This document shows, one piece after another, positions 23,838 to 36,367 of a stretch of DNA of 36,367 nucleotides (position 1 is the first letter of the stretch; the number at the start of each line of letters is the position of its first letter). Source of the DNA: Bacillota bacterium (GTDB taxonomy: Bacteria > Bacillota > DTU030); NCBI GenBank assembly GCA_012523785.1, contig JAAYTH010000044.1, forward strand, positions 1-36,367. Reading direction: 5' to 3'. Below the pieces are notes generated by a model. The model was not told the origin of the DNA and did no database searches. It saw nothing but the letters and a program-made list of their open reading frames with translations. The position numbers were made by a program, and so were the translations under genes.

Positions 23838-24081
23838 CTATCCCGAGATCCTTCAACAAGGCACCCTGCTCAATAAATTCACCCTCTGCCTTTTTTTTCT
23901 CTATCCGCAAATGCTCCTCCTCTGATATATACTCGCCATCTTCTTCATTGATTTTATTCCATATATTATGTTCTTCTTTAAATTTTAAGAACTCGGCCAT
24001 ATCAATGACTGTCTTGATATTTTCCGGTTTTAGCTCTCTTTTTAGTGCTTCTTTTATTTTTTTTGCCAATGTCATACCCAT
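23821..24081 (-). CDS. Cognate antitoxin of the RelE-like toxin
   Basis: Small acidic protein immediately upstream and overlapping the toxin. Confidence 0.7.
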   Translation of the reverse strand: MGMTLAKKIKEALKRELKPENIKTVIDMAEFLKFKEEHNIWNKINEEDGEYISEEEHLRIEKKKAEGEFIEQGALLKDLGIGEDEI

Positions 24082-24296
24082 CCCCTCCGTTCTCGCTTAT
24101 TTACATTTTAATTATAGCATTAGCACCCAACAAAGGCACCTTAAAATAGAAAAATCCGCCCTTTTCTCACCCAGGCCACAGTGGAGGTAAAACCCGCAGA
24201 CTCTTATGTTAGCAGTATTTATGAGATCCTAGCCTTCGCTTAAAGCAGGCGGGATAGAATGCAGGCTCTAGCAGTAATCTTGGACAGGTCCTTGTT

Positions 24297-25448
24297 TTAG
24301 GCGGGTCTAATTTTTATTAGACTCAAAAGCCAACGGAAAAAACGCAGCAATATGTTGGCCCGGGCCACATCCTCCGCCGCAACTAATTCTGTTTCCGCCA
24401 AGACTTGACCAGCCTGTTTTATTTGCAGCCTGCCCAGGGGATCCCCCACCTTGATGGGGGCCCTTACATCGCCAACCGCTATTACCTCCTGCTCCAGTTC
24501 CGCCATCCGTCTTCTTTCAATAGCCAGGGCCATCCTGGAGGCCGTTTTTACCGGCACGGATAATTTTCGGCCCTTGTCCACAGGCACATCCCCTATTACT
24601 TCCCCTTCTGGAATCTCATATAGTCTAAAATTAGCAAAACCATAATCCAAAAGTTCTTCCGCCGCAGTGAGTCTTTCCTTTTCGCTGGGGGTATTTAAGA
24701 TAACACCGATGAGCCGCAGGCCCTCCCTTTGGGCAGTGGCCGCCAGGCAAAAACCCGCCTCCTCAGTCCAGCCGGTTTTTAAACCATCGGCTCCCTCATA
24801 CCTACCGATTAAAGGGTTTCTATTGTATTGCCTGATCCCATTGTAGGTAAATTCCCTTTGGGATTCAAATTCCAGTACTCCAGGATAATTGGTCAACAGG
24901 TGGCGCGACAATACCACAATATCCATAGGGCTCATGACATGGCCCTCTGCTGGAAGGCCGGTGGCATTCTTAAAGGTGGTGTGTTGAAGGCCGAGCTGGC
25001 CAGCCCTTTCATTCATAACCCCGACAAAGGCCCCTTCACTGCCCGCCAGATGTTCCGCCACCACCACACAGGCATCATTGGCCGAGACAACAGAGATGCC
25101 GGTAATAAGATCCCTAAAGGTTACCTCCTGCCCAATCTCCAAAAACATCTGGGAACCACCCATTCGCCAAGCCGCTTCGGAAACGGTCAGGGGGGTCTCC
25201 CAGGTGACATCACCATCTTCCAGGGCCTCAAAGGCCAAGAGGAGGGTCATCAGTTTAGTAATACTGGCCGGAGGCTTGGCCTGGGCGGCATTTTTTTCAT
25301 AGAGCACATTACCGGTAAAGTAATCCTGCAAAACCGCAGCCTCTGCCGCAGATTCAAAGGCAGCCTGGGCAGGAAGGCCCAGCAGTAGCACTAAAACCAT
25401 AGTAAAGGCAATAATAGGCGACCACCTATTTTTTATCAACACTAGCAA
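24297..25448 (-). CDS. D-alanyl-D-alanine carboxypeptidase (DacF/PBP5-like)
   Basis: SITKLMT (SxxK), SAND (SxN), DGLKTGWTEEAGFCLAATA (KTG); signal peptide. Confidence 0.92.
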   Translation of the reverse strand: MLVLIKNRWSPIIAFTMVLVLLLGLPAQAAFESAAEAAVLQDYFTGNVLYEKNAAQAKPPASITKLMTLLLAFEALEDGDVTWETPLTVSEAAWRMGGSQMFLEIGQEVTFRDLITGISVVSANDACVVVAEHLAGSEGAFVGVMNERAGQLGLQHTTFKNATGLPAEGHVMSPMDIVVLSRHLLTNYPGVLEFESQREFTYNGIRQYNRNPLIGRYEGADGLKTGWTEEAGFCLAATAQREGLRLIGVILNTPSEKERLTAAEELLDYGFANFRLYEIPEGEVIGDVPVDKGRKLSVPVKTASRMALAIERRRMAELEQEVIAVGDVRAPIKVGDPLGRLQIKQAGQVLAETELVAAEDVARANILLRFFRWLLSLIKIRPA

Positions 25449-25587
25449 TGGTAGATGCTCCTTTCCCAGGCCATCTTGAGAACAACATCTATAGTATTCA
25501 CTTTTACCCCTAATTTAATTGCCATCCAAGGGCACTTTTAACCTGTTTCATAATTGCCGATTTTCCCCCAATAATTCGCACCCTTTT

Positions 25588-26418
25588 TTACCTATTTCCC
25601 CCGGACCGCCATAGCCACTCATAAAAATCTTCCTTGACCGGAGGGTACAAGATAGCCTCTATATTTTCACGCATTTTAGGGGCAAATTTTCTTTCCTCCA
25701 GTAGGGTTTCTAAAGGTTCTTGTATTTCTTCATGGGGACACTTGCCCAGGTATTCTAGTATTTTCCTTATCCATTGTCTGGTAGTGTTATTGGAGGGAAT
25801 GACATGTAACTCCTCTATCAGTAGGGGGATGACTTCTGCCCTTCGTTCAGGGGTGTCCCGGTGGGCAGCAAGTTCAAGAGCCTTTATTTTTATGTGAACA
25901 TCTTCTATTCTTTCCGGAAGGGGAAGTGCCCGCAGGCAGGAAAACAAAGCCCGATCGGCATCCCTGTTCCCCAAATACATCCGGTGCCCCAACTGTTCAA
26001 GAATACTGTCCCGCTGTTCCCCATCAGCCTGAATAAAATCTTCCAGATCGAATTTAATGGGGGAATATTCCCTTATAATATCCTCGGGTTCCTTGCTCAA
26101 AAAGTCATTGAGTAATTCCTTTCTTTCTCTTTCATCTCTTTTGGCATATTCATGGAACAACTTCCCCACGAAGCTGTCATCTTCTATCTCAATTATTTCC
26201 GCTGGCTCAAACTTTTCACAGGCTTCCCTCTCCCCTAGAAACTTCCTGGTATCAATTATATCCTGGTAGGGGGCGAAGTTGAAATTTTCCAAAATATCGT
26301 CTACAAAGGGTTCCAATACATCATCACTAAGACAAATACCATATTCAGTTGCCTCATTACTGGCTGGGAAATAATAGCCACAATTGAAACAAATCCGTTC
26401 CATTTCCTCCTTGGCCAT
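25588..26418 (-). CDS. HEAT-like repeat protein with N-terminal CxxC segment
   Basis: MAKEEMERICFNCGYYF start with RBS ggaggtg; helical repeats in the C-terminal half. Confidence 0.55.
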   Translation of the reverse strand: MAKEEMERICFNCGYYFPASNEATEYGICLSDDVLEPFVDDILENFNFAPYQDIIDTRKFLGEREACEKFEPAEIIEIEDDSFVGKLFHEYAKRDERERKELLNDFLSKEPEDIIREYSPIKFDLEDFIQADGEQRDSILEQLGHRMYLGNRDADRALFSCLRALPLPERIEDVHIKIKALELAAHRDTPERRAEVIPLLIEELHVIPSNNTTRQWIRKILEYLGKCPHEEIQEPLETLLEERKFAPKMRENIEAILYPPVKEDFYEWLWRSGGNR

Positions 26419-26600
26419 GCTGCACACCTCCCTGTTTATTGGCATATCCTTTTCCAAGGCCGAACCCAGCGGCTACAAAGGCTCAGGCACCACTTCCTCT
26501 CCAATGGATTATTCACTCCAAATTTAAATTCAACCACGGATAAGAAATACCTTTAATTTAAAATTGGAAAGGAGAAAATCCGCAGCCTTCCGAAAGCCAA
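26378..26600. repeat. Duplicated leader region, copy X (upstream of HEAT-like gene)
   Basis: Shares ccacaattgaaacaaatccgttccatttcctcctt, aaatttaaattcaacca and gaaatacctttaattta blocks with 31323-31550. Confidence 0.75.
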
Positions 26601-26606
26601 GGGATT

Positions 26607-26660
26607 AAACAGGGGACGAGGCTCTGCTTGCTTTATAAAACAGAACTCCGTCCCCTGTTA
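26607..26660. repeat. Family A palindromic repeat copy 3
   Basis: aaacaggggacgaggctctgcttgctttataaaacagaactccgtcccctgtta. Confidence 0.85.
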
Positions 26661-26733
26661 CGCATGTATAACAAAACAAATTACTTAACCCGACCGTGCA
26701 TTTTGAAGTAGGATGTTTTTCCCTTTTGTGATC

Positions 26734-26762
26734 TTGACAAAAGAAAATTATTGTTATATTAT
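26734..26762 (+). promoter_or_regulatory. Promoter of GntR-ABC operon
   Basis: TTGACA (26734-26739), 17 nt, TATTAT (26757-26762). Confidence 0.75.
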
Positions 26763-26784
26763 TGTATTAGGCAATTAATACAAT
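26761..26784. promoter_or_regulatory. Perfect operator palindrome for the YtrA-like regulator
   Basis: ATTGTATTA-ggcaat-TAATACAAT, 9-bp arms, overlapping the -10/+1 region. Confidence 0.7.
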
Positions 26785-26802
26785 GACACAGGTGGTGATG
26801 TT

Positions 26803-27174
26803 GTGGCTTGGAATTTCGATCCTAATCGGCCTATATACCTACAGCTGGCGGAAAAGATCGAAACTTTTATCCTCTCCGGCACCTATCCCGCCGGAGCAAA
26901 GATCCCATCAGTACGGGACTTGGCCAAAGAGGCCGCGGTAAATCCCAATACCATGCAGCGGGCCTTGACCAAATTAGAAGAAGATGGATTGTTAATTACC
27001 CAACGCACCAGTGGACGCTTTGTAACCAAGGATTTGGGGAAAATTAATAAAGCCCGCCATAGACTTGTTCAGGATCAAACAGCAGAATTTATGATGAAAA
27101 TGCGGCAACTGGGTATCGAAAAAGAAGAAGTGTTGGAGGCCATCAATATGCTGTCTGAGGAGATGAAAAGATGA
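26803..27174 (+). CDS. GntR-family regulator, YtrA subfamily (GTG start)
   Basis: DPNRPIYLQLAEKIETFILSGTYPAGAKIPSVRDLAKEAAVNPNTMQRAL. Confidence 0.92.
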   Translation: MAWNFDPNRPIYLQLAEKIETFILSGTYPAGAKIPSVRDLAKEAAVNPNTMQRALTKLEEDGLLITQRTSGRFVTKDLGKINKARHRLVQDQTAEFMMKMRQLGIEKEEVLEAINMLSEEMKR

Positions 27175-27869
27175 AAGCAATTTTGGAATGCAAGGGTCTA
27201 AGCAAGGCCTTTGGTAGAAAAAGGGTTTTAAGGAACATTGATTTAGAGTTGGAAAGGGGGAAAATCATCGGCCTTTTGGGGCCCAATGCCAGTGGTAAAA
27301 CTACCTTCCTAAAACTGGCCAATGATTTACTGACACCCAGTGCCGGGAAAATATATATTGATGGATTTACCCCCGGCCTGGAATCAAAAAAAATCATATC
27401 CTATTTGCCGGAAAAAACCTACCTGAACGAATGGATGCGAATAGAACAACTGGTCCAATTCTTTGCTGATTTCTATGAAGATTTCAGCGTTGAAAAAGCC
27501 TACGACATGCTTAAAAGACTGCAGGTGAATCCCCGGGATAGGCTAAAAACCTTATCCAAAGGCACCAAGGAAAAGGTACAGCTCTGTCTAGTCATGGCCC
27601 GGCAGGCAAAATTATACCTTTTGGATGAACCCATCGGTGGTGTAGACCCGGCCGCAAGGGACTTCATTTTGGAAACCATTATCAATAACTACCAGGAAGA
27701 TGCAACCATTGTCATCTCCACCCATCTTATTGCCGACATAGAAAAGGTTTTAGATTATGTTATCTTCCTCAAAGAAGGGGAAATAGCCCTGACATCATCG
27801 GTGGATGAAATAAGAACTCAACATGGCAAATCGGTTGATTCACTCTTTAGGGAGGTCTTTAAATGCTAA
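27171..27869 (+). CDS. ABC transporter ATPase
   Basis: GLLGPNASGKTTFLKL; LSKGTKEKVQL; LYLLDEPIGGVDPAARD. Confidence 0.92.
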   Translation: MKAILECKGLSKAFGRKRVLRNIDLELERGKIIGLLGPNASGKTTFLKLANDLLTPSAGKIYIDGFTPGLESKKIISYLPEKTYLNEWMRIEQLVQFFADFYEDFSVEKAYDMLKRLQVNPRDRLKTLSKGTKEKVQLCLVMARQAKLYLLDEPIGGVDPAARDFILETIINNYQEDATIVISTHLIADIEKVLDYVIFLKEGEIALTSSVDEIRTQHGKSVDSLFREVFKC

Positions 27870-28681
27870 AAAAGTTATTAAAATATGATCTTCAGGCCAC
27901 TCTGCGGATATTTTTACCCCTTTATGCCATATTAATTTCCGTGGCGGTTATTAACAAGCTAATTTCTATTATTCTGCCCCTGCAAGTACAGGCGCCAAAA
28001 ATAATGGCCATGATAATTTATATCACAATCATGGTAGGGATGTTTGTCATTACCTTCATTATGATGCTGCAGCGCTTTTATAAAAACCTGCTTTCCGAAG
28101 AAGGCTACCTCATGTTTACCTTACCCACCCAGCCCTGGAAACTGATCGCCAGCAAACTGCTAGTGGCCATACTCTGGACGGCCGCCAGCGCCTTGGCCGC
28201 CTATATATCCATCTTCATTATCGTTTTTCAGCGGGGCAATTTCGGGGCTTTTATTATTGCCTTAAAGGAGACTGCTACCAGCTTATATGCCTTCCTGGGC
28301 CCCTCAATGTTTTTGTTCATCATAGAAGTTTTACTGGGGGGAGTCCTTAGTCTAGCGGCGGGTATACTGCTGGTCTATGCCTCCATGGCCCTGGGACACC
28401 TTTGCAACCGCCACAGAATTTTAGCATCAGTAGGGGCCTTTATTGCCCTAAATGCCCTAACCCAGATACTTTTCTTCCAGCTAGTACGGCTTATTGCCGC
28501 TCCCTTGTCCCGGAACATGCAGGCGCTGCTTTCAAAGGCCGGTGGCTACCTTAGCACACTAAACGGTGTACAACTATTCCATGGTGTCATGTGGTTTGGC
28601 CTAGCAGCCACTGGTATCTTGGCCGCTGGCTATTTTGCCATTACAAATTATGTTTTGAGCAGGCGCTTGAATCTAGAATAG
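27863..28681 (+). CDS. ABC-2-like transporter permease subunit
   Basis: Six or more hydrophobic segments; LLSEEGYLMFTLPTQPWKLIASKLL; follows ATPase. Confidence 0.78.
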   Translation: MLKKLLKYDLQATLRIFLPLYAILISVAVINKLISIILPLQVQAPKIMAMIIYITIMVGMFVITFIMMLQRFYKNLLSEEGYLMFTLPTQPWKLIASKLLVAILWTAASALAAYISIFIIVFQRGNFGAFIIALKETATSLYAFLGPSMFLFIIEVLLGGVLSLAAGILLVYASMALGHLCNRHRILASVGAFIALNALTQILFFQLVRLIAAPLSRNMQALLSKAGGYLSTLNGVQLFHGVMWFGLAATGILAAGYFAITNYVLSRRLNLE

Positions 28682-28732
28682 AAAGTCGAAGGATCTGCTC
28701 CTTTAGCGAAAAAAATACCCCAATTATAAATC

Positions 28733-28786
28733 AAACAGGGGACGGGGCTCTGCTTGCTTTATAAAACAGAACTCCGTCCCCTATTA
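28733..28786. repeat. Family A palindromic repeat copy 4
   Basis: aaacaggggacggggctctgcttgctttataaaacagaactccgtcccctatta. Confidence 0.85.
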
Positions 28787-28805
28787 CATAGCACCTAATT
28801 TATTA

Positions 28806-29537
28806 TTAGTAAAGGGTGGCCAACAATTCCGCAAAGTCGGCTATTACCTCTGTCTCCGTATCTCTTTCTTCCGGAATGGATGGTGCCTCTTTTTCCTTTC
28901 TCCCGTCATCCCCCTCATTTTCATCCACATCATAACCATATTTCTTCCATACCTCATACAAGGCCCGGTAGTCCCCTTCCTTAAGCTGTTCCCTTATCCT
29001 TGCCAGCAGAAGCAGCAACGGATCCTTTGTCACAGCGGAGGGAAAATCGGGGGCAAAAATATCGTCCTCCCCGTAATCACCATCATAGCCATAACCGTCA
29101 TACAGGTCCCAATCCTTAAGGGCATATACCCCAAAATCAAGGCAGCAATGAATACCTACAATAACCCTTTCACCATAAATGCTAATATAAACCCCTAACT
29201 CATTTATACCCGTAAATTCATACTGCAAAATTTCCTCCTGCTGCTTGGGCGACAACGGAAAGGCCATGGCCAAAAACCACCAATCATAGCTTTCCGAATA
29301 CATGACATCATAATAATCCTTCATAAGGGGCAGCCAGCCATTAGGGATATCATAACCTTCGGCATGATAAATAAAACTAACCCGGCGATCAGTGGGAACC
29401 GCCCGGCTGGACAATGATGCTACAGCAGCCCGGGCCTCTTTGCCTAGGGGTTGATCCACAGCCAAAAACTCATAAGAAGTTGAACTGTGATCCGAAGCAA
29501 AACCGGTACGAACACTAATTATTTTCAAATTAAACAC
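28806..29537 (-). CDS. Conserved protein of unknown function with FASDHSSTSYEF motif (radical SAM partner)
   Basis: N-terminal RTGFASDHSSTSYEFLA; internal DLYDGYGYDGDYGEDD; 6 nt after the rSAM gene. Confidence 0.55.
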   Translation of the reverse strand: MFNLKIISVRTGFASDHSSTSYEFLAVDQPLGKEARAAVASLSSRAVPTDRRVSFIYHAEGYDIPNGWLPLMKDYYDVMYSESYDWWFLAMAFPLSPKQQEEILQYEFTGINELGVYISIYGERVIVGIHCCLDFGVYALKDWDLYDGYGYDGDYGEDDIFAPDFPSAVTKDPLLLLLARIREQLKEGDYRALYEVWKKYGYDVDENEGDDGRKEKEAPSIPEERDTETEVIADFAELLATLY

Positions 29538-29543
29538 CCCTTC

Positions 29544-31292
29544 TTATAACAGCTCCATTAGTGGATCCCGTCTATCCCCCCCGGGGAGCAGCCAGCGGGG
29601 ATAATCGTGCCCCGGTTCCTCCAGCCAGGTGGAAATCTCCTCTCTAGAAACAAAGGGAGCTCCCCCCGGGGTACAACCGATCAGGTCCTGGATCTCATAG
29701 AGCTGGTAAGTATCAATTTTAATATAATATTCCCTTTCCTTTTCAACTATCACCTTCTTCGGCATCAGCCAATCGGTATTTCTCAATTCCTTGACCGCCC
29801 TCCTCCGTCCAACCCGGAAGTGTTCCATATACTTTTCTATACTGATATAGGAGTTATTTTCAAAATAGGCCCGTAAAGCTGCTTTACGGCCACTAGGCCC
29901 CAAATGCTGCACCCTAGGCAGGAGGGGTTTTCCACAACCCGGATCCTCCCCCAAGGCGTCATGGGCAAAAACCCGGCAGCCTCCACAATGTTCCCGGGCC
30001 AAACAAGTCCCACAATATGTTTCACGAAAGGAAGCCTTTTCCCGAAAAAGGCGATATTTCTTCATTTGCTTGCTGTTCCAAAGGGTGTGGCAATCTTCAC
30101 TGATAATATGTCCAGCCCTAAATCTGGTATCCATAAGCTGGGAACAAGGATAAGCAAAGCCATCGGCGGCCAGGGCCAACACCCGGCTAGCGGCAACACA
30201 GCCCCGCAGGCCAGCCGCCAGGGCCCCTTGCGGTTTTAGATCCCGCTGTAGGAAACTTAGGGCACAGTCCAGCCGGAGCTCAATATGGGGGTAGATCATT
30301 TTTATCCGGGGCAATACAGCAGCAACCCTTGTATAGGCCTGGGGAGAAGAGCTTTCTGCTAGCCAGCGGTCAAGATCAGAAGGAGGTTTATAGCGTAGCA
30401 GAATGATCCGCTTAAAGCCAACTTCAACCAAGGCCCTCATAATCTGGCCAAAATGTTTCAGGACTGTATTGCAAAGAATCAAGTTGGCCCCTATCCTTAG
30501 CCCCATTGCTTCTGCGGCATCTACCACCCGCCCCAAGGATACCATCTCCCCCCGGGTATCCTCCAGAAGGCGGTCGTGTTTGATGCCGATGTGCAATGAT
30601 TTCACCGCCGGAGCCAGCCGCTCAAGGAGTTTAATATCCAGGTCTGCAATTAAACCGGTGGTAATATGCACAACCAAGCCGCTGTCCTTGGCCGCCTTGA
30701 CCAGGAGGGGAAGATCAGGCCGCAGCAATGGCTCCCCACCACCCAAGGCCAGTTGAAAAACCCCCCAGCGGGCCAGTTTTTCAATAACCCGCAGCGCACC
30801 GGCGGTATTAAGTTCCTTAACCCCCTGATCACTATAGCGCCGGGCATAACAATCAGGGCAGTTCTGATTACAGGCAAAGGTTATGGCCCAATGGACTGTT
30901 TCCGGCGCAGAAAGATGGTACTTTCCCGGTGAAGGCCGGGCCTTCGCTGGCTGGAATAAGCATGCTTGGTCAATAAGGCTATCCTCCGGAAAGCTATTGA
31001 CCAAGCCCAAATCAACTAGCTTCTGTAAAACTGCAATAGTGTCAGCCCGCAGTTTAGATACGGATTTCTCCCCTTCCCCCTTTTTAGCCAGAACCGTTAG
31101 CAGATCATTCAAGCCCACAGCCTGTTTTTCCTTCAGATGGGAAAGCAAGGAAAATGCCCCTTTACCAAGATCCACCACCATACCATTGCCCCGGTGGAAG
31201 GCAATCCCACCCCACAACTCTTCCCGCAAACGGATCCCCTCTGCCAGATGGACCTTTACTTTCTCCACCGCTTCGTCATCTGTATAATTCAT
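29544..31292 (-). CDS. Radical SAM/SPASM protein with PqqD-like N-terminus and C-terminal HTH-like extension
   Basis: FACNQNCPDCYARRY; LALGGGEPLLRPDL; Cys-rich SPASM-like YCGTCLAREHCGGC; start re-assigned to MNYTDDEAVEK with RBS AAGGAAG. Confidence 0.78.
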   Translation of the reverse strand: MNYTDDEAVEKVKVHLAEGIRLREELWGGIAFHRGNGMVVDLGKGAFSLLSHLKEKQAVGLNDLLTVLAKKGEGEKSVSKLRADTIAVLQKLVDLGLVNSFPEDSLIDQACLFQPAKARPSPGKYHLSAPETVHWAITFACNQNCPDCYARRYSDQGVKELNTAGALRVIEKLARWGVFQLALGGGEPLLRPDLPLLVKAAKDSGLVVHITTGLIADLDIKLLERLAPAVKSLHIGIKHDRLLEDTRGEMVSLGRVVDAAEAMGLRIGANLILCNTVLKHFGQIMRALVEVGFKRIILLRYKPPSDLDRWLAESSSPQAYTRVAAVLPRIKMIYPHIELRLDCALSFLQRDLKPQGALAAGLRGCVAASRVLALAADGFAYPCSQLMDTRFRAGHIISEDCHTLWNSKQMKKYRLFREKASFRETYCGTCLAREHCGGCRVFAHDALGEDPGCGKPLLPRVQHLGPSGRKAALRAYFENNSYISIEKYMEHFRVGRRRAVKELRNTDWLMPKKVIVEKEREYYIKIDTYQLYEIQDLIGCTPGGAPFVSREEISTWLEEPGHDYPRWLLPGGDRRDPLMELL

Positions 31293-31363
31293 ACAAACAC
31301 TTCCTTCTGGCTGCCGCTTATCCCACAATTGAAACAAATCCGTTCCATTTCCTCCTTTGTCAT
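31289..31363 (-). CDS. 24-aa ORF MTKEEMERICFNCGISGSQKEVFV overlapping the rSAM start (ATGA): leader-peptide remnant or small peptide
   Basis: Near-identical to the N-terminus of the HEAT-like protein at 26418; translationally coupled overlap. Confidence 0.4.
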   Translation of the reverse strand: MTKEEMERICFNCGISGSQKEVFV

Positions 31364-31550
31364 ACTGCACACCCCCCGTATGGTCGGCCAATCTCTTTTC
31401 TAAATTGAACTTAGCAGTTGCGCGGGTTCAAGCACCGTTTCCCCTCCACGGGATGATCCAATTCAAATTTAAATTCAACCATAGTTAGGAAATACCTTTA
31501 ATTTAAATTGGAAGGGAGGAAAATCTGCTGCCTTTCGGAAGCCAAGGCCA
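31323..31550. repeat. Duplicated leader region, copy Y (upstream of radical SAM gene)
   Basis: See copy X. Confidence 0.75.
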
Positions 31551-31589
31551 AAAATTGAAACGGGGATGAAAATTGAACAAAGGGCAATT

Positions 31590-31643
31590 AAACCGGGGAC
31601 GGAGTGCTGTTTGCTATTTAGAATAGAATTCCCTCCCCTATTT
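31590..31643. repeat. Family A palindromic repeat copy 5
   Basis: aaaccggggacggagtgctgtttgctatttagaatagaattccctcccctattt. Confidence 0.75.
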
Positions 31644-31784
31644 CGCGCTGTTTCGCATATTTCCAGTCTTTTGGGCAGGAAATTGATGGATTAAAGTCGA
31701 AAAGAGGATACATTGAAAAATGGTTGGGTAAAAATCCCTTAACAAAATAAGCAAATGCCTTTAAATTAAGGAGCATGTATATTT

Positions 31785-34295
31785 ATGAGTATTACAACTG
31801 CACAAATCGCAAAGAGATTATCAATTTCACCGCAAGAGGCAATGAGGCTGCTGCAAAAATATGGGATTGAGGTGACGGATGTCAATGCAGTGCTGGACAA
31901 ATCGGATTTGCAGAAAATAAGACATGCCATCCAGAAGATTAAAAAACAAGATCGTAAAAGAACAACTCCTTCTTTAGCTGAAAAGGCCCGCAAGGATTTG
32001 AGGCACTGCCTTACACACTACAAGGTTTTTATTGATACCTGCAGCCTACTAAATGATACTGCGGCTCAATTTTGGAGTAATGCTGTGCCATTGCTTGAGG
32101 AAACAGGAAATAAGATAATTATTACTACTAAGGTTGTTGAAGAACTGGAAAAACATTACCGAAACCAAAACAATCCCCCCCTAGCCAAAAAAGCGGCCAC
32201 AGCATTGGAATATATCAATGTGTTACTGAAAAGCCAATTAGTTGTCATCCAAGGGGAACAAAGCGATGTTTTTGCTGATAATGTTTTTCAGGTAGTTTTC
32301 ACTAAATTTAGAATGACGGAGAGACTGCTGCTTATTACCCAAGACCAGGATCTGGCTACAGATATTCTAAACCTCAACAATAATAAATCGGTTAGAGCCA
32401 ATAGGGTATATGTAAAAAGGATCAATCAATTTGGTTACCTTAGCTATTTTTCCCTTAAAAAGAGAAAAGCCGAACTAGCACCTAGACTTCGGGCGGAGGA
32501 AAAGTTTTCTTTAAGTAAGAATTTAACAACCATACCCGCCGAGCTACTCATAACTGCCAAGATTCCCACTGAAGGCGAGGTGGTATATGCTCGACACGAA
32601 ACCCAAGAGGGCCCAGTCCAATTGCTGGAGGAAATGGCTTCCGGTGGTGAAGGAAGAATATTTACAACTAATACCCCCTACCTGGCCAAGATTTATAAAG
32701 AAGGGAAGTTAAGCCAAAGGAAATACGAAAAAATAAAATTGATGCTGAGCAAGAAAATTAACTGTACGGGTATTTGCTATCCTCAGGCCTGTTTATATAA
32801 TAAAGACAAGCAGTTTGTTGGATATTTGATGCCCCGGGCCCAGGGAAAGGAACTACAAAAATGCCTTTTTATCAAGCCCCTGCTCTTCAAAAACTTCCCC
32901 CATTGGAAAAAACGGGATACAGTAGAGCTCTGTATAACCATTCTGGAAAAAATAAAGTATTTACATAGCCGCAACATTATCATTGGAGATATAAACCCGG
33001 CCAATATCCTCCTAGTTTCCCCAACCGAAGTTTATTTTGTTGATACAGACAGTTATCAAATTGAAGGTTTCCCCTGCCCCGTCGGTACAATAAATTACAC
33101 CGCTCCCGAAATACAAAGAAAGACCTTTGCCACTTTTTTAAGATCATACGGCAATGAGTATTTCGCCGTAGCCACCCTGCTCTTTATGATCATGCTGCCG
33201 GGAAAACCACCCTATTCCCAGCAAGGTGGGGAAAACCCCATTGATAATATAATCAAAATGGACTTCTCATACCCCCTGGGGGATCTCTCCAATAAAAAAA
33301 CCCCCGACGGCCCCTGGCGGTTTATCTGGAGCCATTTACCCTTTGACATTAAGAGTGGATTCTATCACACATTCCGAAGGGGTGGTGATTATAGCACAGA
33401 AAATAATCGGCTAAATGTCGAGAAATGGCTGAACATGTTCCAGTACTACTTACAATTGCTTGATAGCGGCAAGTACGGTATGCGGGACAAAATGTCGGAA
33501 GACCTGTTTCCGACCCGGTACCAGAGACATCCCGATGTCACCTATGCTCGCTGCAAGTTATGTGGAAAAGAGGTCCCCGCAAATACATGCCGGGAAGGCA
33601 TCTGCCCCGATTGTCTAAATACTGGAGAGGTCCATCATTGTAGGCGCTGTGGCAAAGAAATACTTTTTACCAATTACCAAAAATATATTAGAAGGGTAAA
33701 ACCCCACAGCCTATGCCCGGAATGTTATTCCCATGGCAAAAAAGTCTATGCCAGGGTAAGATGCATAAACTGTGGGAGGTATTTTCAAATTACCAATAGT
33801 GAGTATGAATATTTTCGTTCCAAAAATTTACACCTTCCCAAACGATGTAAACAATGCCGCAAGCTCGCCAACAGGACATATTCACCACCCAGAAGAACAT
33901 ATCCCACACCGACCAGGAGAACACCAACAGGGCCTGGCAAAGGTTCCTTGTGCTTTCTTACCACAGCCATATGTAACTACTTGCAAAAAGAAGACAATTG
34001 TTATGAGCTGACAATCCTAAGAAAATTTAGGGATGACTGGCTGCAAAAACAGCCAGGGGGACATCGCTTAATCACAGAATACTATTTTATAGCACCGGAT
34101 ATCGTATGTACATTGGCAGCTTCTCCGTCAAAAGACAAGATCTATAATAGGCTCTGGCGAAGGTACATCAAACCCTGTGTGGCCTATATTGAAACCGGAG
34201 AATTCACTGCCTGTAAGAAAAAGTATATGGCCATGGTTAGATATCTAGAGAGGGTTTTGCCAATAAAAGAAAGGTGGAATAAATATGCAAGATAA
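31785..34295 (+). CDS. Multidomain protein: IF2N-like HTH, PIN-like nuclease, serine/threonine kinase-like domain, zinc ribbons, CFI-box C-terminus
   Basis: ITTAQIAKRLSISPQEAMRLLQKYGIEV; VFIDTCSLLND..TTKVVEELEKH..LLLITQDQDLATDIL; LHSRNIIIGDINPANILL...VYFVDTDSY, APEI; multiple CxxC pairs; CFLTTAICNYLQKEDNCYELTILRKFRDDWL. Confidence 0.78.
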   Translation: MSITTAQIAKRLSISPQEAMRLLQKYGIEVTDVNAVLDKSDLQKIRHAIQKIKKQDRKRTTPSLAEKARKDLRHCLTHYKVFIDTCSLLNDTAAQFWSNAVPLLEETGNKIIITTKVVEELEKHYRNQNNPPLAKKAATALEYINVLLKSQLVVIQGEQSDVFADNVFQVVFTKFRMTERLLLITQDQDLATDILNLNNNKSVRANRVYVKRINQFGYLSYFSLKKRKAELAPRLRAEEKFSLSKNLTTIPAELLITAKIPTEGEVVYARHETQEGPVQLLEEMASGGEGRIFTTNTPYLAKIYKEGKLSQRKYEKIKLMLSKKINCTGICYPQACLYNKDKQFVGYLMPRAQGKELQKCLFIKPLLFKNFPHWKKRDTVELCITILEKIKYLHSRNIIIGDINPANILLVSPTEVYFVDTDSYQIEGFPCPVGTINYTAPEIQRKTFATFLRSYGNEYFAVATLLFMIMLPGKPPYSQQGGENPIDNIIKMDFSYPLGDLSNKKTPDGPWRFIWSHLPFDIKSGFYHTFRRGGDYSTENNRLNVEKWLNMFQYYLQLLDSGKYGMRDKMSEDLFPTRYQRHPDVTYARCKLCGKEVPANTCREGICPDCLNTGEVHHCRRCGKEILFTNYQKYIRRVKPHSLCPECYSHGKKVYARVRCINCGRYFQITNSEYEYFRSKNLHLPKRCKQCRKLANRTYSPPRRTYPTPTRRTPTGPGKGSLCFLTTAICNYLQKEDNCYELTILRKFRDDWLQKQPGGHRLITEYYFIAPDIVCTLAASPSKDKIYNRLWRRYIKPCVAYIETGEFTACKKKYMAMVRYLERVLPIKERWNKYAR

Positions 34296-34971
34296 CTTGT
34301 TAGTAAGGCTGGAGGATTTAGTCAATAACCCAACTCCCCGAGTACCTGTTTGCCTATGCTTAGATACCAGTGGCTCTATGCAGGGTAAGCCCATTGATGA
34401 ACTCAATGAAGGGGTCAAGATGTTTTATAAGGCCATCCGTGAGGATGAAACCGCAATGTATTCGGCGGAAATTAGCATTGTCACTTTTGGCGGGACTGCA
34501 GAACTAATCGCAGATTTTGCCAACATTGATAGGCAGTCTGAACCAACTCTAACGGCCAGTGGCACAACTCCCATGGGGGAAGCAGTAAACATGGCTCTAG
34601 ACTGTTTGGAAAAAAGAAAGGAAGAATATAAGGATAAGGGCGTGGATTATTACCAACCATGGCTGGTACTGATGACTGACGGTGCACCCTACGGCGGTTC
34701 CGCCGATGAAGTTACCCGTGCCATTTCCAGAACAGTTGAAATGGCCCAAAACAAAAAACTAACCGTGTTTCCCATTGGAATTGGTAGTGGTGCAGACATG
34801 AAGGTATTAGAACAATTCTCCCCCCAAAGGGAACCCCTCAGGCTGCAGGGTCTTAAATTCCGGGAGCTCTTCGCTTGGCTAAGTGAGAGTATTTCAAGAA
34901 CATCCCAATCGACACCCGGTGAAAGGGTTGAACTGAATGTGGAGGGTATTAAGGGTTGGGCCGAGATATAA
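34285..34971 (+). CDS. TerY-like von Willebrand factor A domain protein
   Basis: MIDAS CLDTSGSM, SGTTPMGEA, LMTDGAPYGG. Confidence 0.9.
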   Translation: MQDNLLVRLEDLVNNPTPRVPVCLCLDTSGSMQGKPIDELNEGVKMFYKAIREDETAMYSAEISIVTFGGTAELIADFANIDRQSEPTLTASGTTPMGEAVNMALDCLEKRKEEYKDKGVDYYQPWLVLMTDGAPYGGSADEVTRAISRTVEMAQNKKLTVFPIGIGSGADMKVLEQFSPQREPLRLQGLKFRELFAWLSESISRTSQSTPGERVELNVEGIKGWAEI

Positions 34972-35117
34972 AGGCAAAGTAACTACTCGGCTGCACCTAC
35001 AAACCCTGTCTTGTCGGCTTTCCCGATACATCCCAAAACATCTTGCTTGTCACCCCGCCCGTCCAGAGCCCAGCGGAGGGAGGCCAGTGGCCCAAGGATC
35101 TCTGCAGTCTAATGCCT

Positions 35118-35168
35118 AGGATCCTTCGCTTGGCTTAGGATGACACTATGAGTTGCTGCTGAATAGTT
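35118..35168. repeat. Family B extragenic repeat copy 1
   Basis: aggatccttcgcttggcttaggatgacactatgagttgctgctgaatagtt. Confidence 0.65.
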
Positions 35169-35224
35169 GCAAGACAAAAATTCTTTCTAAAGGGATATAA
35201 ATAATTCCCCGGCTCAAAAACTAG

Positions 35225-36235
35225 ATGGGATTGATGAATATGTGGAAATCAATTAATTATGAGGTGTGTGGGAGAAGTCATAGCCAATCTTCCACCCCCT
35301 GCCAAGACAAAACCAAAGCCTGCACTATCAACGCTGTTAAAATAATTGCCTTGGCCGATGGCGCCGGCTCACAGCCGCTATCCCATTTTGGTGCAGCAGT
35401 TGTCACCGATTCAATATGCCAATATTTAGCCCAACATTTCGACCGGCTGCTGGGGGACCCCGATGGAAAACAAGCCAAAAAAGATATTTTAGCCCACTTG
35501 CTGGGCCGACTCAGGGTTAAAAGTGAGAAGCTTTCCTGTAATATCCGGGAATTAGCCTCTACCTTATTGGCGGTAGCAGTAAAGGGGAATATGTTCCTTA
35601 TGCTCCATATTGGCGATGGAGTTATCGGCTGCCTAAAAAATAAGGAACTTAAGGTTGTATCGGACCCGGAAAATGGAGAATTCGCCAACACTACCAGCTT
35701 TGTTACTTCAAGGGAAGCCATCTATGTAATGAAGCTTTTTAAGGGGTCAACAACCGATATAGCCGGTTTTGTCCTGATGTCAGATGGAACAGCCGAAAGT
35801 CTATATCATAAAAAGCATAATAAATTTGCCCATGTTTTATTTAAGCTAATGCATAGAACAGCGATTCTAGATTCTGATAAAATGTATGAATTCATTAAAG
35901 AAAGTTTTGACCGGGTTCTGGTTTTAAATACCCAGGATGATTGCAGTATCGCGTTGCTGTGCCGCCAGAAGGGGCCCTTGTGTAAATATGCCGATATGAC
36001 CCTGGGGCAAAAATGTGACTTGTTAAATATCACAGCCTACGACCGGGCTGCCAAAAGAAGGGTAAAACGTTTTGATGATATTATGTACTATTTGGAAGAG
36101 GGGAAAACATTAAAGCAATTGTCTAAACTATTGTACCTAAAGGAGAAATATACCCGCCGTCATTTAAAACGGCTCGAAGGGCTTGGCCTGGTATCAAGGA
36201 AGGGAAAAACCTATTCTAAAATCGTAACTGCTTAA
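35225..36235 (+). CDS. PP2C-like phosphatase with C-terminal helix-turn-helix
   Basis: CQDKTKAC..ALADGAGSQPLSHFGAAVVTD; ASTLLAVAVKGNMFLMLHIGDGVIG; FVLMSDGTAESL; NTQDDCSIALL; C-terminal TLKQLSKLLYLKEKYTRRHLKRLEGLGLVSRKGKTY. Confidence 0.82.
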   Translation: MGLMNMWKSINYEVCGRSHSQSSTPCQDKTKACTINAVKIIALADGAGSQPLSHFGAAVVTDSICQYLAQHFDRLLGDPDGKQAKKDILAHLLGRLRVKSEKLSCNIRELASTLLAVAVKGNMFLMLHIGDGVIGCLKNKELKVVSDPENGEFANTTSFVTSREAIYVMKLFKGSTTDIAGFVLMSDGTAESLYHKKHNKFAHVLFKLMHRTAILDSDKMYEFIKESFDRVLVLNTQDDCSIALLCRQKGPLCKYADMTLGQKCDLLNITAYDRAAKRRVKRFDDIMYYLEEGKTLKQLSKLLYLKEKYTRRHLKRLEGLGLVSRKGKTYSKIVTA

Positions 36236-36251
36236 CAGCCACCTTTAGTTA

Positions 36252-36304
36252 GTGTCATCCTGAGCGAAACGAAGGATGGCACTATGAGTTGTTGCTCAAT
36301 AGTT
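36252..36304. repeat. Family B extragenic repeat copy 2
   Basis: tgtcatcctgagcgaaacgaaggatggcactatgagttgttgctcaatagtt; the final 32 nt match 35137-35168 at 29/32 by eye. Confidence 0.65.
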
Positions 36305-36367
36305 ACTATATAAGTTAAAAGCCAAAAGCGAGGTGCAGGGACTTGTATACTTGGGAAAATGTAACCG

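Follow-up and report, generated by a model that had tools for sequence, protein, structure and literature searches.

A conserved PIN-kinase fusion protein encoded with vWA and PP2C partners in a TerY-P-like gene triad

Could a bacterial kinase that is encoded beside a vWA protein and a PP2C phosphatase carry its own RNase effector? This question is raised by three consecutive genes of a Bacillota bacterium (GTDB lineage DTU030; assembly GCA_012523785.1, 1.68 Mb in 227 contigs, 97% complete), which lie on contig JAAYTH010000044.1. The window that we analyzed is this complete 36-kb contig (36,367 nucleotides). An original prediction, made by eye, had described the genes as a TerY-P-like triad of kinase, TerY-like vWA protein and PP2C-like phosphatase, with a PIN-like region fused to the kinase. 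Three plus-strand open reading frames (ORFs) were indeed found, spanning window positions 31785-36235 as predicted, with an 11-base overlap between the kinase and vWA genes, and their products matched Pkinase, VWA and PP2C_2 above the respective cut-offs. The gene block and its domain identities are as follows.

31785..34295, plus strand: PIN-kinase fusion protein, 836 amino acids (aa); full-length AlphaFold2 model with predicted local distance difference test (pLDDT) 89.2 and predicted TM-score (pTM) 0.55
31800..31931, plus strand: IF2_N-like N-terminal helical domain, aa 6-49; Pfam IF2_N at 24.4 bits, below the cut-off of 25.3
32016..32441, plus strand: PIN nuclease domain, about aa 78-219, catalytic acids D84, E120, D165 and D187; profile, conservation, AlphaFold2 and Foldseek
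32616..33524, plus strand: Ser/Thr kinase-like domain, about aa 278-580; Pkinase above cut-off (match 343-491), conservation
33543..33863, plus strand: zinc-ribbon block, about aa 587-693, CxxC pairs, zf_Tbcl/DZR-like; Pfam scan and family profile
33951..34169, plus strand: CFI-box C-terminal domain, aa 723-795; NCBIfam NF041770 at 54.9 bits, cut-off 40
34285..34971, plus strand: TerY-like vWA protein, 228 aa, metal ion-dependent adhesion site (MIDAS) D27-S29-S31..T95..D132, C-terminal tail GWAEI; VWA above Pfam cut-off
35225..36235, plus strand: PP2C phosphatase (aa 7-245) with C-terminal winged helix-turn-helix (wHTH; aa 262-330), 336 aa; PP2C_2 E-value 8.8e-48, HTH_5 above cut-off

Profile, model and conservation evidence converged on a PIN domain in the N-terminal region of the kinase protein. 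The PIN_4 profile (aa 83-161) scored 21.8 bits on the full 836-aa protein, just below its cut-off of 21.9, and 27.1 bits when the PIN segment was scanned alone. It also matched 36 of 41 relatives and reached 29.7 bits on the whole protein of a prophage relative. The original prediction had proposed AlphaFold as a check, and a model of the PIN region built on a 41-sequence alignment gave a pLDDT of 89.3. A Foldseek search with this model against the PDB returned PIN structures from the top rank, with human SMG6/EST1A as the best match (E-value 2e-4) and with further matches to AF0591, pre-ribosome PIN subunits such as Utp24 and Utp23, MJ1533 and VapC. The PIN fold is clear from the model, and its subfamily is uncertain because the TM-scores were moderate (about 0.5). 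Acidic residues had been pointed out in the motifs IDTCSLL, VVEELE and TQDQDLATD, and among 47 fused proteins the corresponding D84, E120 and D187 are kept in 45, 44 and 46, respectively. The fourth catalytic acid is D165, in the motif FADN (43 of 47); T185 is invariant, and 41 of the 47 proteins retain the full DEDD acid set. Based on fold and conservation, we rejected chance or misannotation as the source of the PIN call.

The PIN-kinase fusion is a conserved family across many phyla. Single-protein queries of genome contigs and viral contigs gave no matches, and an alignment query succeeded. An alignment-based scan of GTDB species genomes, seeded on kinase motifs, yielded 60 loci, to which our profile map adds two plasmids, one Fusobacterium record and one IMG/VR contig (individual loci are given L numbers). 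Gene order is nearly fixed: in some loci a helix-turn-helix (HTH)-PIN gene, then the PIN-kinase gene, one or two vWA genes, and the PP2C gene, which often encodes a wHTH. Both vWA and PP2C genes lie beside the PIN-kinase gene in 39/39 loci that have at least 2.5 kb downstream, from a total of 45 fused loci. With kinase motifs as its seed, the scan did not select for this linkage, whose occurrence in all 39 loci excludes chance association. Key residues are conserved in all three proteins: kinase Lys302, Asp402, Asn407 and Asp420 are invariant across the family alignment, each of the vWA MIDAS residues (D27, S29, S31, T95 and D132) is kept in 66-68 of 69 proteins, and the PP2C metal-binding acids are conserved in more than 90%. 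A non-PIN fold, unconserved acids or a lack of co-occurrence with vWA and PP2C genes, which the original prediction had named as outcomes that would speak against it, were not what we found.

The remaining domains of the fusion protein are less uniform. Zinc ribbons and a C-terminal CFI-box had been read from the sequence, and matches were obtained at about 587-694 and 723-795, the latter above cut-off; the family profile matches the zinc-ribbon block in 30 of the 45 fused loci. The suggested IF2N-like HTH held in part, in that aa 6-49 match the IF2_N profile with a score just under the cut-off, and this match is confined to the nearest relatives. In Actinomycetota loci L052, L057 and L058, the PIN domain is encoded by a separate gene that directly precedes and abuts the kinase gene, with the catalytic acids kept. 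Megasphaera L022 (6356-10883) has two tandem PIN-kinases, the first of which lacks the zinc ribbon and the CFI-box. Bacilli versions have a conserved fourth gene of about 220 aa after PP2C (L004 13345-14001; L035 12346-13005, from Bacillus niameyensis; and L037 12367-13038), the product of which in L004 has a weak C-terminal DnaJ match, and HerA/DUF87-type ATPases of about 1000 aa are encoded directly downstream of PP2C in L030 (12113-15115) and L036 (7056-10043). CFI-box domains also end many other Selenomonadaceae proteins (L087-L099) and occur in a phage protein near a portal gene (L007 4001-4327).

The system is sporadic and mobile. Among 399 sampled genomes of the phylum it was detected in six, five with a kinase or PIN part and one matching the CFI box only. 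It is carried by 1 of 16 Megasphaera genomes and by about 7 of 121 Selenomonadaceae, where most other matches are CFI-box proteins only, and it was not found in the four genomes checked from the same genus (one congener) and family (three). Copies reside on two plasmids: Lysinibacillus capsici plasmid pFN9B (L004 9001-13345), on which the system adjoins transposases, and a conjugative Paenarthrobacter plasmid (L005), on which it adjoins a Mu-type transposase gene. The interval between tail/lysozyme genes and the integrase is a usual site of prophage cargo, and in the prophage on IMG/VR contig L016 the system lies in this interval. Further viral scans returned L016 again and weak matches limited to the kinase, with no other carriers. 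An empty site was sought in close relatives, and the DNA flanking the triad matched none of the family genomes.

Thirteen of the 45 fused loci encode a second, kinase-less PIN protein upstream, which usually consists of an XRE-HTH and a PIN domain. The complete DEDD set is present, by aligned columns, in 0/12 of the HTH-PIN proteins with a full PIN region (at most one when a one-column shift is allowed), compared with 41/47 of the kinase-fused proteins. Examples in which an XRE-HTH with a decayed PIN (HTH-pseudoPIN) lies directly upstream of the PIN-kinase, most with the tail described next, are L003 8581-9489, L019 7590-8579 and L043 6662-7969. A C-terminal tail of the GW[DE]x type ends 8 of 13 HTH-PIN proteins and 41 of 71 vWA proteins versus 4 of the 1686 remaining ORFs of these loci, a contrast whose Fisher p-values overstate certainty, as they ignore shared descent, use a background that includes spurious ORFs, and concern a pattern seen by eye before counting. 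Because the tail occurs in two unrelated protein classes after linkers of widely differing length, its sequence context suggests a short docking motif. The tail as a general trait of adjacent genes was rejected, since neighbors are not clearly enriched (2/23 near vs 7/230 far), and we restrict the claim to vWA and HTH-PIN proteins. This partner and the shared tail, together with the PP2C wHTH, the family-wide conservation and the split Actinomycetota PIN gene, are features beyond those in the original prediction.

How does the triad relate to TerY-P? TerY-P comprises a TerY vWA protein, a PP2C and a Ser/Thr kinase (Anantharaman 2012; Gao 2020; both according to PMC11090510 and PMC7699616), defends P. 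aeruginosa against Autographiviridae while most cells survive (PMC10889362), and acts against T7-like phages (in the passage of PMC7699616 that reports Gao et al. 2020). Like TerY-P, the triad consists of the same three protein classes in a single block of adjacent genes, its vWA protein has a MIDAS, the W of the vWA tail is conserved in both, and its kinase is followed by C-terminal zinc ribbons, as in the TerY-P found within Type II/III-A CoCoNuT operons (PMC11090510). Unlike TerY-P, the kinase gene is first rather than last, and the proteins feature an N-terminal PIN fusion, a CFI-box and a PP2C-wHTH. Furthermore, in our kinase tree the main body, which spans many phyla, is split by a well-supported branch from three sampled relatives of vWA-PP2C-kinase order (L006, L073 and L074), although these sit on long branches and deep forks of the tree are often unsupported. 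The original prediction had noted no TerD or TerC genes in the window, and the absence of TerD (PF02342) extends to the whole 97%-complete assembly; TerD is not required for stand-alone systems. CoCoNuT operons also differ in their neighbors, as no Pfam families of the CnuB/McrB, CnuC or CnuH type were recognized among the window proteins scanned, with the contig ending at 36367 and a downstream operon possible.

We propose that the triad works as a mobile, stand-alone conflict module resembling TerY-P, with a kinase-fused PIN RNase as the effector that the kinase/phosphatase pair gates, a reading to which we assign roughly even chances. The original prediction had likewise suggested an RNase system under phosphorylation control, in stress or phage defense, that may act alone. 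From its sequence, the PIN domain likely has RNase activity, and the invariant pairing of kinase with phosphatase makes gating by phosphorylation plausible. In a resting cell, the PIN RNase would be kept inactive by the phosphorylation state that kinase and PP2C set, with the vWA protein bridging the two. The zinc-ribbon, CFI-box and IF2N parts may then sense infection or stress, for example through foreign or stalled RNA, and the changed phosphorylation would free the PIN domain for cleavage of phage mRNA, or of host RNA with a resulting growth halt, until the switch is reset by the phosphatase. Where relatives have an upstream HTH-pseudoPIN, it would behave like an antitoxin, pairing with the active PIN domain and repressing the operon. 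An anti-phage role is suggested by analogy with TerY-P, and we count the sporadic distribution and the plasmid and prophage carriage as indirect support.

Several observations weigh against this proposal. TerY-P models of PADLOC gave no match to the kinase, for which only PD-T4-6-type kinases were returned, and the vWA protein matched TerY at just E 0.009; PADLOC also missed the L006 triad of vWA-PP2C-kinase order, and for this reason its TerY-P models may be narrow. We set the triad apart from TerY-P because of gene order, the PIN fusion and the missing PADLOC match, such that the predicted assignment stands for the three protein classes, their linkage and their catalytic residues and does not extend to strict PADLOC membership. 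Some branches of the kinase family have no detectable PIN domain or have other domains (Ppx/GppA in L062 and RQC in L054), which indicates that PIN is dispensable to the module. In L062 (680-2707), where vWA and PP2C lie alongside, a kinase of the same group bears a Ppx/GppA domain at its C-terminus as an alternative output, and kinase motifs are decayed in two group members (L068 and L069). The HTH-pseudoPIN is absent from the window and from its own genome, and thus this copy must be controlled without it. Finally, PADLOC and Pfam tallies of 113 neighbors were scattered, as far as tallies without a matched background can be read, and the nameable window genes outside the triad are housekeeping or metabolic (molybdenum hydroxylase, XdhC/YqeC and FecCD transporter); mobility is what we claim, and defense-island enrichment is not claimed.

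Other readings of the same genes were weighed. The triad could be a stress-response switch for RNA decay or translation control, an IRE1-like kinase-RNase sensor of metal, oxidative or ribosome stress rather than a phage defense. Its PIN fold is nearest the RNA-decay and RNA-processing nucleases SMG6 and Utp24, binding of RNA or ribosomes is conceivable for its IF2_N-like domain and its zinc ribbons, its neighbors form no clear defense island, and TerY-P was first linked to tellurite and stress responses (as cited in a passage of PMC11090510). Very patchy occurrence and carriage on plasmids and a prophage are unlike a core stress pathway, and we consider this explanation unlikely. We regard as improbable a toxin-antitoxin-like module in which PIN is the toxin, an adjacent HTH protein neutralizes it, and kinase, PP2C and vWA are add-on regulators. 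The upstream kinase-less proteins, mostly with a degenerate active site, and, on the Paenarthrobacter plasmid, an HTH_17 protein gene that shares a 4-base overlap with the PIN-kinase gene would fit such a module, but most loci, including the window, have no such HTH gene, and it is vWA and PP2C that are invariant. An equally poor prospect is that PIN is a non-cleaving platform that binds RNA or protein while the kinase is the effector that phosphorylates phage or host proteins. The kinase is the best-conserved part and is retained in branches without PIN, yet few positions of the PIN domain are as well conserved as its four acids, a constraint that a mere platform would not need, and the decayed HTH-PIN paralogue displays how loss of these acids looks.

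A more far-reaching version of the gated-effector proposal, possible but on balance doubtful, is a widespread kinase-RNase immune switch that would be a PIN-based functional counterpart of IRE1 and RNase L. In such a switch, kinase, PP2C and vWA would gate the RNase, the DNA-binding pseudo-nuclease paralogue would be both antitoxin and autorepressor, and the GW tail would dock vWA and pseudo-nuclease on the same site. IRE1 and RNase L are eukaryotic fusions of a kinase fold and an endoRNase that serve as stress or antiviral sensors. The RNase here differs in being PIN rather than HEPN/KEN, N-terminal rather than C-terminal, and bacterial, which limits the comparison to a works-like analogy. 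VapBC and other PIN toxin-antitoxin systems share a PIN nuclease with conserved acids and, in some relatives, an HTH partner (HTH-pseudoPIN or HTH_17); unlike VapC, the PIN domain here is kinase-fused and closer in fold to SMG6/Utp24, and the window has no antitoxin gene. The E. coli YegI-PphC(YegK)-YegL set, of which YegL is the vWA member, differs in that YegI is membrane-bound, and we know of no PIN domain described for YegI. Like the triad, this set combines a kinase and a PP2C that act on each other with a nearby vWA gene (PMC13232886, in a passage citing Rajagopalan 2018, 2020).

The DNA around the triad contains repeats. The gap between the vWA and PP2C genes (34972-35224) is wide, and a 41-nt repeat at 35137-35177 recurs at 36273-36313 (within 36236-36367); because it lies on both sides, small mobile or repetitive extragenic palindromic (REP)-like elements may flank the PP2C gene. 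At 26378-26661 and again at 31323-31644, the latter upstream of the kinase gene, there is a direct repeat of 225 nt (76%) with a 58-nt GGGGACGG...CCGTCCCC element after it, and a third copy of the 58-nt element is found at 28730. Each copy of the 225-nt repeat overlaps the start of a minus-strand ORF. Divergent to the triad (28806-31391) are genes for a radical SAM/SPASM protein (615 aa) and an acidic 243-aa protein without a Pfam family, a possible peptide-maturation pair. An Rfam scan of window positions 24000-36367 gave no matches.

NCBI annotation already names single genes of the system ('CFI-box-CTERM' and 'PIN domain-containing'), and a full-text literature search found no paper on a PIN-kinase TerY-P, with the founding papers (Anantharaman 2012 and Gao 2020) outside its reach and a prior description possible. 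In the literature covered, validated TerY-P consists of kinase, phosphatase and vWA without an obvious effector that would kill or block phages; here, a putative effector domain is visible, and with its catalytic residues known, four point mutations would put the effector question to a direct test. The decayed HTH-PIN paralogue and the tail that it shares point to a specific mechanism of control that can be checked. If true, our proposal would add a bacterial kinase-RNase fusion under phosphatase control.

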